In this document: positions 18,060 to 20,093 of the stretch, in pieces | Numbering within the stretch: the stretch's first letter is position 1 | Layout: the number at the start of each line of letters is the position of its first letter | Assembly (NCBI RefSeq): GCF_003970675.1 | Contig: NZ_CP034562.1 | Coordinates: 558,001 to 622,000 of the forward strand | Direction of reading: 5' to 3' | Origin: Flammeovirga pectinis | GTDB lineage: Bacteria > Bacteroidota > Bacteroidia > Cytophagales > Flammeovirgaceae | DNA length: 64,000 bases | Translations under genes and position numbers: made by a program | The notes under the pieces: model-generated | The model's input: the letters and a program-made list of their open reading frames with translations, nothing else | Databases searched by the model: none | What the model was told of the DNA's origin: nothing

Positions 18060-18153
18060 TATTGTGTACATCTATAATATGATAATACGGAGAAATGTAA
18101 ATAAGTTTTAATAAAAATTTGTTTAAGTGTAAAATTTATACTTGTTTAGAAAT

Positions 18154-18211
18154 ATCAACAACGAAAAATGTTGATTTATCAAGAAAACACAAACCGTATA
18201 TACATCGGTTT
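18154..18211 (+). ncRNA. two small hairpins upstream of 3' element copy 1 (candidate RNA)
   Basis: After the 17142 gene stop there are 165 bases before the repeated element. They hold ATCAACA-acgaaaaa-TGTTGAT (18154-18175) and AAACCG-tatatacat-CGGTTT (18191-18211). With the element and terminator this could be an independent small RNA of about 130-150 bases ending near 18293, or a long 3' untranslated region. A poor promoter match exists (TTTG 18118-18121, TATACTTG 18137-18144, spacing 15). Confidence 0.35.
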
Positions 18212-18223
18212 TAAAAATATTCG

Positions 18224-18254
18224 ATTAGTTGGAAGTTTGTTTGTTAGTTTAGTT
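18224..18254 (+). repeat. 31-base 3' element, copy 1
   Basis: Begins ATTAGTTGGAAGTTTGTTTG and ends TTAGTTTAGTT. It is identical to the copy at 19324 and differs by one base from the copy at 20022. It lies 7 bases before a terminator hairpin. It is rich in G and T, unstructured by itself and in the same orientation as the other two. Confidence 0.85.
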
Positions 18255-18261
18255 TTAGTGA

Positions 18262-18293
18262 AAAGAACCTGTAATATTTACAGGTTCTTTTTT
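18262..18293 (+). terminator. terminator after 3' element copy 1
   Basis: AAGAACCTGTAA pairs with TTACAGGTTCTT across TAT, followed by T. The stem sequence differs from those after copies 2 and 3. Confidence 0.85.
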
Positions 18294-18319
18294 GTATACA
18301 ATTTTTTTATTTCTGAAAA

Positions 18320-18347
18320 TTTGGCTTAATTGTACACATTACTTTTG
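18320..18347 (+). promoter_or_regulatory. candidate promoter of the 18372 gene
   Basis: TTTG at 18320-18323 and TACTTTTG at 18340-18347 (exact TAnnTTTG), 16 bases apart, slightly short. The start point would be near 18354. This excludes the TTG at 18330 as start and supports ATG 18372. Confidence 0.45.
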
Positions 18348-18371
18348 TGTTTATTCCTAACTATCTTTACC

Positions 18372-18605
18372 ATGACTACCAACTTTACCTCATCATTATT
18401 TACTGAACCGTATCCTCAGTACATTTCTGACATAATAGAGTCTGCTACAGTGAAATTTAAAGAGATCAATTTAGAATTAATTGATCCAAATGAATTTTTA
18501 TCAATTCTGTATGATAAATTCTTACAGCTCCGTAAGAATAAAAAGGATATTACATTAGAAGAATGTATTAATAGTATCATCAAAGATGAATTATTAAAAC
18601 AATGA
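18372..18605 (+). CDS. small protein A of a tandem paralogous family (77 aa)
   Basis: Starting at ATG 18372 gives a 77-residue mostly helical protein without signal peptide. Its segment QYISDIIESATVKFKEIN, then NEFLSILYDKF, aligns with the core of the next two small genes: QY-x4-[IV]-[IFY]-E, a K/R-E pair, then [NS][ED][FY][LI] before a hydrophobic end. It lacks the beta-rich N-terminal part of the other two and continues with an extra helix (KKDITLEECINSIIKDE). No known family is recognised. The frame stays open upstream to TTG 18330, but a promoter box covers that part. Confidence 0.55.
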   Translation: MTTNFTSSLFTEPYPQYISDIIESATVKFKEINLELIDPNEFLSILYDKFLQLRKNKKDITLEECINSIIKDELLKQ

Positions 18606-18821
18606 AATTGATTTTGTGATCCTTCAATATATTCAATTAATTAGTGTAATAATTTTAAGAATAGTTGATAAAGCAGAATATAATTTTGGAACTATTTAGA
18701 AAAGTAGATAATAGTTCACCTTACGTATTGTTTTTTGTACTTTTTAATTATTCATTATATAATGATATAAAGTAAATCATATAACAATTCTAATAAAATG
18801 TACTTTTTACGCCTCTTACTG

Positions 18822-18851
18822 TTGTACAATTAAAATATTTACAATTATTTG
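18822..18851 (+). promoter_or_regulatory. candidate promoter of the 18920 gene
   Basis: TTG at 18822-18824, 19 bases, then ATTATTTG at 18844-18851 followed by CA. The same 19-base spacing and TTTGCA occur before the 19644 gene. The rest of the 18606-18843 gap shows no element copy and no convincing gene. Confidence 0.5.
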
Positions 18852-18855
18852 CAGA

Positions 18856-18884
18856 CGTAATCAAAACAGAACGAATTGATTACG
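18856..18884 (+). promoter_or_regulatory. 5' leader hairpin of the 18920 gene
   Basis: CGTAATCAA (18856-18864) pairs perfectly with TTGATTACG (18876-18884) around an 11-base loop. Outer arms ACAATTA (18841-18847) and TAATTGT (18891-18897) are also complementary. The hairpin begins where transcription should start, so the mRNA would carry it at its extreme 5' end. Confidence 0.5.
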
Positions 18885-18919
18885 ATTTAATAATTGTTTC
18901 ATACTTAAAGTAAATTGTT

Positions 18920-19273
18920 ATGACTAATTTCTACAAAATTGCATTAGAAGGTGAATTGAAGAATTCAGATATTTTCTTTTCAGTATTTTTAAAAGTTACG
19001 AAAAAGAACAATTTATTTAAGTTCTCAATTGATGCAAAAGGAGAGTTCCTTTCACTTACAGAAAGAGAGTCTTTATTAAACATAGGTATGTCTCAATATG
19101 CTGAAACAAGGATTTTTGAGACATTTTTAAAATTTAGAGAAGAAGGAATATCAGCAGATATTTCAGATTATATTAGTGTATTATCAGATGAATTATCTGT
19201 AGAGGATATTCATGATACATTAGTTGAATTGTCAATAATTTCTGAGGGAGCATTTATGAAATCAGCTTCTTAA
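18920..19273 (+). CDS. small protein B of a tandem paralogous family (117 aa)
   Basis: A 117-residue soluble protein of unrecognised family. Residues 1-47 are beta-rich (FYKIALEGELKNSDIFFSVF). Residues 50-95 hold the helical core shared with its neighbours (SQYAETRIFETFLKFREEGI, then SDYISVLSDE), and a further helix follows. The best relative in the window is the 19644 gene (TQYVESRVYELFSSTREKGN, then NEYIEIISKE). It is a complete single-gene unit: promoter with 19-base spacer, 5' hairpin, reading frame, 3' element copy 2, terminator. Function unknown; no catalytic or DNA-binding motif is seen. Confidence 0.65.
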   Translation: MTNFYKIALEGELKNSDIFFSVFLKVTKKNNLFKFSIDAKGEFLSLTERESLLNIGMSQYAETRIFETFLKFREEGISADISDYISVLSDELSVEDIHDTLVELSIISEGAFMKSAS

Positions 19274-19323
19274 GAATTAAAAATATTATAACCCAGAAAT
19301 ACTATTTACTATAGAATTAAAAA

Positions 19324-19354
19324 ATTAGTTGGAAGTTTGTTTGTTAGTTTAGTT
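19324..19354 (+). repeat. 31-base 3' element, copy 2
   Basis: Identical to copy 1 over all 31 bases. It starts 50 bases after the stop of the 18920 gene and ends 2 bases before the terminator hairpin. Confidence 0.85.
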
Positions 19355-19356
19355 AG

Positions 19357-19388
19357 AAAAGAGCTCGTGATTTTTACGGGCTCTTTTT
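19357..19388 (+). terminator. terminator after 3' element copy 2
   Basis: AAAAGAGCTCGTGA pairs with TACGGGCTCTTTT (with G-U pairs), followed by a T-run. Confidence 0.85.
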
Positions 19389-19453
19389 TTGCATTTTATC
19401 TTAACATGAGAGATGTTTATAGAATGTTATTGAATATGAACTATTTGCATATA

Positions 19454-19499
19454 AATATGATTAATCATATTCGTTAATGTTTTGTTCACAATTCGTTAA
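19454..19499. repeat. 18-base palindrome and spaced direct repeat upstream of the 19644 gene
   Basis: AATATGATTAATCATATT (19454-19471) is a perfect palindrome. Overlapping its end, ATTCGTTAA occurs at 19469-19477 and again at 19491-19499, 22 bases apart start to start, two helical turns. Both lie 57-100 bases before the promoter and could be binding sites for a regulator. AT-rich palindromes also arise by chance. Confidence 0.35.
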
Positions 19500-19555
19500 C
19501 CTATAGATTCTAACTAAGAAAAAATAGGATTATTTTAATGTTATGGGTGTAAATC

Positions 19556-19585
19556 TTGTTTAAACATATTTAAATGTGTTGTTTG
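19556..19585 (+). promoter_or_regulatory. candidate promoter of the 19644 gene
   Basis: TTG at 19556-19558, 19 bases, then GTTGTTTG at 19578-19585 followed by CA. The -7 box is a weaker match, but the geometry is the same as for the 18920 gene. Confidence 0.4.
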
Positions 19586-19590
19586 CAATG

Positions 19591-19610
19591 CCGTTAGATA
19601 TTGTTAACGG
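19591..19610 (+). promoter_or_regulatory. 5' leader hairpin of the 19644 gene
   Basis: CCGTTA pairs with TAACGG around GATATTGT. As in the 18920 gene it sits about five bases after TTTGCA, at the expected 5' end of the mRNA. The stem sequence is unrelated. Confidence 0.4.
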
Positions 19611-19643
19611 ACAACCAAGTATATCCATCAAATAATAACCTAC

Positions 19644-19991
19644 ATGATTATCAAATACAACTTCAAATTTCAAGACCCTAAGTCAAATTCAGATTTATCA
19701 GGTGAATTAAACATCACTATGATTTCTGAAACATCACCAGTTTATGATGTTACGTTAAATCAAGGTTCAAACAATGTTGATTTATTAAAGCTTATGAACG
19801 ATGTTTTTACACAATATGTAGAATCTAGAGTGTATGAGTTGTTTTCTTCAACAAGAGAAAAAGGAAATACATTGACTGAAAATGAATATATAGAAATTAT
19901 AAGTAAAGAAGCTCCAACTCCATTAGTTAAAGAAGTTGTTGGAGATATGCATTTTGTGTATGACAATGTAGACTATCTACAAGCATCATAA
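19644..19991 (+). CDS. small protein C of a tandem paralogous family (115 aa)
   Basis: A 115-residue protein with the same plan as the 18920 product. It has a beta-rich N-terminal half (IIKYNFKFQDPKSNSDLSGE, LNITMI, VYDVTLNQG), then the shared helical core TQYVESRVYELFSSTREKGN and NEYIEIISKE, and a short variable tail (HFVYDNVDYLQAS). No signal peptide, membrane helix or known motif. The gene has its own promoter, 5' hairpin, 3' element copy 3 and terminator. The tandem arrangement of similar units suggests duplication followed by divergence. Function unknown. Confidence 0.65.
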   Translation: MIIKYNFKFQDPKSNSDLSGELNITMISETSPVYDVTLNQGSNNVDLLKLMNDVFTQYVESRVYELFSSTREKGNTLTENEYIEIISKEAPTPLVKEVVGDMHFVYDNVDYLQAS

Positions 19992-20021
19992 AACACTAAA
20001 ATGACTTTACTAAAGAAATAA

Positions 20022-20052
20022 ATTAGTTGAAAGTTTGTTTGTTAGTTTAGTT
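20022..20052 (+). repeat. 31-base 3' element, copy 3
   Basis: Same as copies 1 and 2 except one base (ATTAGTTGAAAG instead of ATTAGTTGGAAG). It begins 30 bases after the stop of the 19644 gene and ends 8 bases before the terminator. Confidence 0.85.
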
Positions 20053-20060
20053 TAAGAAGG

Positions 20061-20093
20061 AAAGAGTTTCTGAATTTCGGAGGCTCTTTTTTT
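20061..20093 (+). terminator. terminator after 3' element copy 3
   Basis: AAAGAGTTTCTG pairs with CGGAGGCTCTTT (with G-U pairs), followed by seven T in all. The stem sequence is again different. Confidence 0.85.

Follow-up and report, generated by a model that had tools for sequence, protein, structure and literature searches.

Three element copies and their genes

We analysed a 64,000-nucleotide stretch of the Flammeovirga pectinis genome (contig NZ_CP034562.1, positions 558,001 to 622,000), hereafter called the window, in which a 31-base element occurs three times on the + strand, each time shortly before a terminator hairpin (Table 1). Copies 1 and 2 are identical and copy 3 carries a single change, G to A; the positions, near-identity and common orientation given in the original prediction, made from the letters of the window, were recovered as such. 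With up to 3 mismatches allowed, a 30-mer of the element matched these 3 places of the window and no others, for a mean of 0.00 matches in 100 shuffles. The distance of 2-8 bases proposed between element and hairpin was roughly right, our folds giving 5, 0 and 4 bases for copies 1, 2 and 3. As had been described, the hairpin stems differ while keeping their shape, with a 3-base loop and a T-run behind each copy, and short folds of all three copies leave the element free. A simple terminator scan reported only the terminators of copies 2 and 3; that of copy 1 was missed, probably because its T-run is consumed in the stem. The surroundings had been called unalike, which holds for the DNA but not for the genes, as copies 2 and 3 both follow paralogous genes.

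The two small proteins encoded there (BLASTP E 1e-7 between them) gave no match in Pfam or NCBIfam. They vary by species, with 109-117 amino acids over the window (18920-19991) and the orthologous loci L049-L056, and all end in Ala-Ser. Across 9 Flammeovirga genomes, the stop codon precedes the element by 47-97 bases for copy 2 and by 8-31 bases for copy 3. Since the latter distance is 8-10 bases in three genomes, copy 3 should lie in the 3′ untranslated region (UTR) of the messenger RNA (mRNA), unless a promoter is placed inside the gene.

Copy 1 belongs to a putative stand-alone small RNA, inside which no open reading frame (ORF) of at least 60 amino acids was found; from core through terminator it matches the covariance model described below (E 7.7e-10). 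Within the footprint upstream of it, an imperfect inverted repeat (AAGT...ACTT) may serve as an operator; the spacing of the footprint departs from the usual Bacteroidota promoter consensus. When the window was compared with Rfam, the sole match was an S-adenosylmethionine (SAM) riboswitch (RF00162, 58493-58602, − strand, 73.9 bits), away from the element.

Table 1. Features of the window related to the element
Feature	Position	Strand	Basis
Promoter-like footprint conserved ahead of copy 1 (TTTG ... ACTT.TTT)	18117-18149	+	Alignment of 9 Flammeovirga; predicted promoter role
Copy 1 as putative stand-alone small RNA, with variable 5′ part, element and terminator	18150-18293	+	5′ end guessed
31-base element, copy 1 (core 18232-18254)	18224-18254	+	Sequence matches; 30/30 columns invariant in 9/9 Flammeovirga
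Terminator hairpin and T-run, copy 1 (hairpin 18260-18292)	18260-18293	+	Fold, z -4.2
Small protein gene, 117 amino acids, 3′ UTR with copy 2	18920-19273	+	117-amino-acid orthologue in 9/9 Flammeovirga
31-base element, copy 2, about 50 bases past the stop codon	19324-19354	+	26/30 columns invariant in 9 Flammeovirga
Terminator hairpin and T-run, copy 2 (hairpin 19355-19389)	19355-19391	+	Fold and simple terminator scan
Paralogous small protein gene, 115 amino acids, 3′ UTR with copy 3	19644-19991	+	Orthologue of 109-116 amino acids in 9/9 Flammeovirga
31-base element, copy 3 (one G to A)	20022-20052	+	30/30 columns invariant in 9 Flammeovirga
Terminator hairpin and T-run, copy 3	20057-20093	+	Fold and simple terminator scan

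Distribution of the element and its stand-alone unit

Searching this genome and its relatives for the element followed by a terminator, and building a covariance model, as had been suggested, yielded further terminator-linked copies. The own genome (6.68 Mb) holds eight: the three of the window, four in a tandem array and one stand-alone copy. The array lies on another contig, its 30-base copies being placed 350-366 bases apart between ORFs, each with a terminator-like hairpin. The eighth copy, stand-alone on the contig of the window, was found with a 23-base core, GAAGTTTGTTTGTTAGTTTAGTT, and is the top match of the model (E 1.2e-14). All 9 Flammeovirga genomes contain the three clustered copies, 1-4 more on another contig and one copy of the eighth type; among named genomes, 12 stretches carry the element, all from Flammeovirga. 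With up to 2 mismatches, the core was present in 27 of the 291 sampled genomes of the order, distributed as 17/18 in the family of F. pectinis (own family), 10/13 in a second family and 0/260 in all others, and a control with the core pattern read backwards matched in 1 genome of the 291. The original prediction had named as its refutation a set of just three copies, born of a recent duplication and absent from relatives; the opposite was found, with eight copies here and further ones in two families.

The covariance model (R1) was built from 22 stand-alone copies (alignment A1). It matched 10 of the 13 second-family genomes (nine at E ≤8.6e-12, the tenth at 2.8e-4; most of these copies were already part of the model) and turned up no more divergent copies in that family. 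In 395 genomes of the phylum, R1 found nothing convincing outside the two families. Five of these (besides the own genome) gave weak matches, with E from 1.2e-5 to 7.3e-4, which we read as ordinary terminators; no promoter motif was seen by eye in the 70 bases upstream, and the three with ORFs listed (L128, L130, L131) lie directly at the ends of protein genes. Five loci compared with Rfam 15 gave no family match at the gathering score, and the own stand-alone copy gave only chance-level matches at E ≤10 (best E 1.6).

Outside Flammeovirga, the element is mostly present in one copy per genome; some genomes (G068, G144) have two or three, and G016 and G119 each have a second, odd match. From GAAG on, the stand-alone unit is about 70 bases long and consists of the 24-base element, a short TATTAAAGTGGAA-like stretch running into the stem, and the terminator. 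In A1, 23 of the 24 element columns are invariant across the 22 sequences, base 4 being G or A. The terminator covaries: 98.5% of cells are paired and both sides have changed in 9 of 15 pairs, values as high being reached by 0/500 shuffles on four of five measures and by 5/500 on the fifth. One copy (L123, G171) folds without a terminator hairpin. When the stand-alone copy of the own genome is folded, a few element bases are paired in the minimum-energy structure and none in the centroid. The rows of A1 are 21 of the 31 core sites plus L057, row L097 beginning six bases upstream of GAAG and ending early; omitted were near-identical Flammeovirga copies (L098, L099, L101-L103), further G144 copies (L124 at 459, L125) and the ill-fitting L123, which lacks the hairpin, L112 and L116 (element ending in C).

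At 7-9 bases upstream of GAAG, 19 of 20 non-Flammeovirga stand-alone copies carry AAAC-N17/18-GTTA (at least 7 of 8 letters), a count to be taken as a guide because these sequences, which are related, are also those that the motif was derived from; in 300 shuffles the mean was 0.26 and the largest value 3. The count covered 29 of the 31 core sites, L112 and L116 being excluded. The housekeeping promoter consensus of Bacteroidota is TTTG and TAnnTTTG; we take the motif to be unlike it, and to resemble the promoters of extracytoplasmic function (ECF) sigma factors. A search of whole genomes (n=7) for TAAACAAA-N13-15-GTTTA gave no enrichment over a backward control.

At the second locus, as in the window, the element takes a longer form, with TTAGTTG ahead of GAAG, that is found only in Flammeovirga. 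A leader precedes it in copy 1 and in the copies of the second locus; the 5′ footprints of this leader are conserved, while its middle parts vary. Over the 9 Flammeovirga genomes, the invariance of the element (Table 1) compares with 33, 16 and 22 invariant columns in the upstream 100 bases and 29, 17 and 32 in the downstream 70 bases, for copies 1, 2 and 3. Judged from these columns, selection acts on the element. At the level of sequence, the alignments establish as ancestral form a stand-alone unit of about 70 bases, which outside Flammeovirga consists of a promoter-like AAAC-N17/18-GTTA, 7-9 bases, GAAGTTTGTTTGTTAGTTTAGTTTATTAAAG and a covarying intrinsic terminator. They likewise establish that Flammeovirga duplicated this unit into long-leader copies, a tandem array and two small-protein 3′ UTRs, element and terminator being kept.

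Some matches depart from these forms. In G144, L124 has tandem stand-alone units at 324 and 459, 135 bases apart and with a promoter-like motif each, which is an independent tandem duplication outside Flammeovirga. The second match of G016 (L112:4048-4070; G016:C8:2293047-2293069) is isolated, with 21 contiguous core bases and no terminator; on the opposite strand, it reads as a near-perfect seed complement 57 bases upstream of a 336-amino-acid gene without assigned function. It represents either a remnant or a genuine, though rare, antisense target. The second copy of G119 (L116; G119:C219:2895-2917) ends in C and is followed by an extra hairpin, then by a terminator-like one; its neighbours are what we take to be an scpA-like gene and glutamine synthetase III, and it is possibly a divergent paralogue. 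At L163 (G006:C38:293), 15 bases identical to part of the element, AAGTTTGTTTGTTAG, stand just after a hairpin with the remaining element absent; there is no core copy at 23 bases and no terminator behind them, and they may be a chance match or a fragment. A peptide coded by the element was also considered, as a short NTG-initiated frame was seen by eye in many stand-alone copies. It was rejected because the frame is not universal and the conservation beyond its stop would stay unexplained.

The tandem copies in G000 and G144, and the confinement of the extra long-element copies to Flammeovirga, are what would be expected from a mobile or selfish terminator-bearing repeat, similar to repetitive extragenic palindromes, that spreads through duplication only. 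We nevertheless hold this to be very improbable, as matching genomes contain 1-8 copies, nearly always in one orientation ahead of a terminator, as the element is the same over genera, and as the hemL and TetR neighbours (see below) are kept in the own family. Moreover, no exact 21-mer of the element was present in viral contigs, and plasmids gave no match to the one stand-alone copy searched.

Gene neighbourhood and predicted partners

Among the 17 own-family stand-alone loci checked, a hemL motif is found downstream in the same direction in 16, and a TetR-type gene motif divergently upstream in 15, the TetR-type gene of L096 being identified by Pfam. The gene order, divergent TetR-type gene, small RNA, hemL, is thus conserved in the own family (L096-L109, L111, L057), and a tetrapyrrole or haem link to the predicted small RNA is possible. 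Where an ORF of hemL size was listed, it lies 171-423 bases from the core; in G016 the distance is about 500. Such an arrangement could be that of a cis-acting attenuator, element and terminator forming a leader that controls the downstream gene, hemL in the own family. This is quite unlikely, since the downstream gene is a different one in the second family, runs in the opposite direction in L113, L114, L122 and L123 as well as past the four-copy array, and since window copies 2 and 3 are placed at gene ends. Because second-family neighbours differ, several being convergent, we conclude that the stand-alone unit is independent and not the leader of one gene.

Possible pairing with mRNAs was scored on 607 gene start regions, taken from 864 kb or 13% of the own genome. 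Duplexes of -17 kcal/mol or below numbered 15, compared to 7.9 (standard deviation 3.0) after shuffling, and 0/60 shuffles reached 15; at -16 kcal/mol, 24 were found for 15.0 in the shuffles, 3/60 of which reached that number. The reversed element yielded 5, 12 and 153 duplexes at -17, -16 and -12 kcal/mol. These predicted duplexes suggest a weak enrichment of start regions. The top candidate target, best of the 607, is an HmuY-like gene (PF14064) at -21.5 kcal/mol. In the 9 Flammeovirga genomes, a 23-mer complement with up to 3 mismatches was found only at the copies themselves and at one 3-mismatch place in G001. Sequestration of the element by its own leader was rejected, the duplex energy having a z below -2 in just 1 of 42 copies. 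In 5/9 genomes each, at least 92 of 100 shuffles paired better with the element than the leaders of copies 1 and 2 did; no copy went beyond z +2, and avoidance of such pairing was thus not shown. Hfq (PF17209) was detected in 0/19 genomes (the own genome and relatives, one from the second family), and in 5/14 control genomes with the same search.

A protein partner is a live rival to base pairing, because the direct pairing tests are weak, the top target is not conserved and long complements are not in excess. For an RNA-binding protein, for instance of the RRM type, the RNA would then be a landing site or a decoy, its UUUG/UUAG repeats titrating the protein; in 3′ UTRs, the same repeats would stabilise or localise the mRNA. 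The recurrence of G about every four bases fits with this, as do the presence of the element at a predicted 5′ end as well as in 3′ UTRs, the lack of an excess of long mRNA complements, and the reported preference of RbpB of Bacteroides for single-stranded regions of noncoding RNAs (PMC11697453). Yet a near-invariant stretch of 23-24 bases would be longer and stricter than short protein motifs usually need, and a regular expression found no RRM signature in about 13% of the own genome and the loci, a search that decides little. On balance we consider a protein decoy unlikely, while keeping it in view.

A predicted small-RNA family and its counterparts

Selection on the RNA had been proposed in the original prediction, with a protein site, a 3′-end stability element or a small-RNA family as options. 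The last is best supported, because the element persists over genera and two families next to terminators that change and covary, and because a promoter-like motif stands at a constant distance from the stand-alone copies outside Flammeovirga. A 3′-end stability element fits less well, since in stand-alone copies the element lies at the predicted 5′ end of an RNA of about 70 nucleotides. We favour, with a probability of roughly 0.6, the reading that the element acts as the conserved, single-stranded seed in a family of trans-acting small regulatory RNAs, present in Flammeovirga, its family and one further family of the order. Transcription, seed function and targets of these RNAs are what we infer from the sequences.

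Several observations weigh against this reading. Longer folds of several copies pair parts of the element with the leader. The 9 Flammeovirga stand-alone copies have no AAAC box and keep the GTTA part alone, and the motif count elsewhere is a guide for the reason given above. The start-region enrichment comes from 13% of the genome and depends on the threshold, with 173 duplexes at -12 kcal/mol for 146 after shuffling (11/60 shuffles reaching this number); a second, ungapped score was reached by 0/60 shuffles at one cut, 19/60 at the lowest and 9/60 at the highest. As a conserved target, the HmuY-like gene was rejected: 11 of 18 genomes have a match to it, and the site is kept just in G000 and G003, so that its conservation reaches no further than the nearest species, the other nine giving -8.2 to -14.2 kcal/mol. 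For a 15-mer complement with up to 1 mismatch, non-self matches numbered 32 in the 9 Flammeovirga genomes, compared to 47 for a backward control, and 39 compared to 47 in 18 other genomes. Finally, copies were found by their likeness to the element (≤3 mismatches), which raises its sameness somewhat. To be set against this bias, window-type copies adjoin the same genes in 9/9 Flammeovirga genomes and the model found no more divergent copies.

If the element is a seed, the stand-alone gene would be transcribed from about GAAG by an alternative, ECF-like sigma factor, and the unpaired GU-rich 5′ end would pair, near the starts of several mRNAs, with sequences rich in A and C. Pairing would repress, or shield, these targets without Hfq, possibly with help from some other RNA-binding protein. 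Through the extra copies, among them those of the 3′ UTRs, released with or from their mRNAs, the same seed would come under other promoters. A bolder proposal, which we put forward tentatively and regard as rather doubtful, is that one nearly invariant seed is used twice: it would form the 5′ end of a core small RNA under ECF control, and it would also serve as a module on small-protein 3′ UTRs and tandem arrays, so that several unrelated transcripts would regulate, or compete for, shared partners in hosts with no detectable Hfq. Among the best-matching papers on Flammeovirga, Flammeovirgaceae and Cytophagales, no description of a small RNA was found for Flammeovirga or its family.

Small RNAs of this kind are known; the family itself appears to be new, and unusual in that its seed is grafted onto 3′ UTRs and arrays. 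In enterobacteria, the R1 region of GcvB is a GU-rich single-stranded seed that pairs with CA-rich mRNA leaders, and GcvB depends on Hfq. The element resembles R1 in being GU-rich and single-stranded, a likeness by description only; it differs in that Hfq was not found here and that long complements are not in excess. RybB begins with its seed. The sigma-E dependent RybB and MicA (PMC1804206) are similarly short RNAs, and the stand-alone RNA is likewise predicted to begin with its seed and to have an ECF-type promoter. Unlike for RybB and MicA, Hfq was not found and the ECF sigma factor is a prediction; the seeds are unrelated by eye.

The closest counterpart is FopS (FopS/GibS) of Bacteroides thetaiotaomicron, which is reported to have (PMC11697453, PMC7366714) a single-stranded 5′ seed followed by a terminator and many paralogues, one of them from a 3′ UTR. 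Base pairing with mRNAs is the best reading of our element because its layout, a single-stranded conserved 5′ stretch and then a terminator, matches that reported for FopS. Both families are multi-copy, with intergenic and 3′-UTR members (one in FopS/GibS), and both belong to Bacteroidota hosts with no obvious Hfq. The present family would offer a second case, beside FopS, of how Bacteroidota lacking Hfq organise multi-copy small RNAs with long seeds. The near letter-for-letter conservation of 23-24 bases over two families makes the element a strong point of entry, with a covariance model, a promoter motif, a prediction of where transcription starts and a small set of loci. The differences are as follows. 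No FopS match was obtained in Rfam at E ≤10, in a copy of Rfam whose inclusion of FopS was not checked. FopS is reported for Bacteroidaceae, whereas our element is found in two families of another order. FopS promoters are described as of the sigma-ABfr type, compared to AAAC-N17/18-GTTA in 19/20 non-Flammeovirga copies here, the sigma-ABfr consensus being compared by eye. Lastly, FopS/GibS is reported to bind an RRM-1 protein and to pair near target start codons, for which the counterpart in our family is the weak enrichment predicted at gene start regions.

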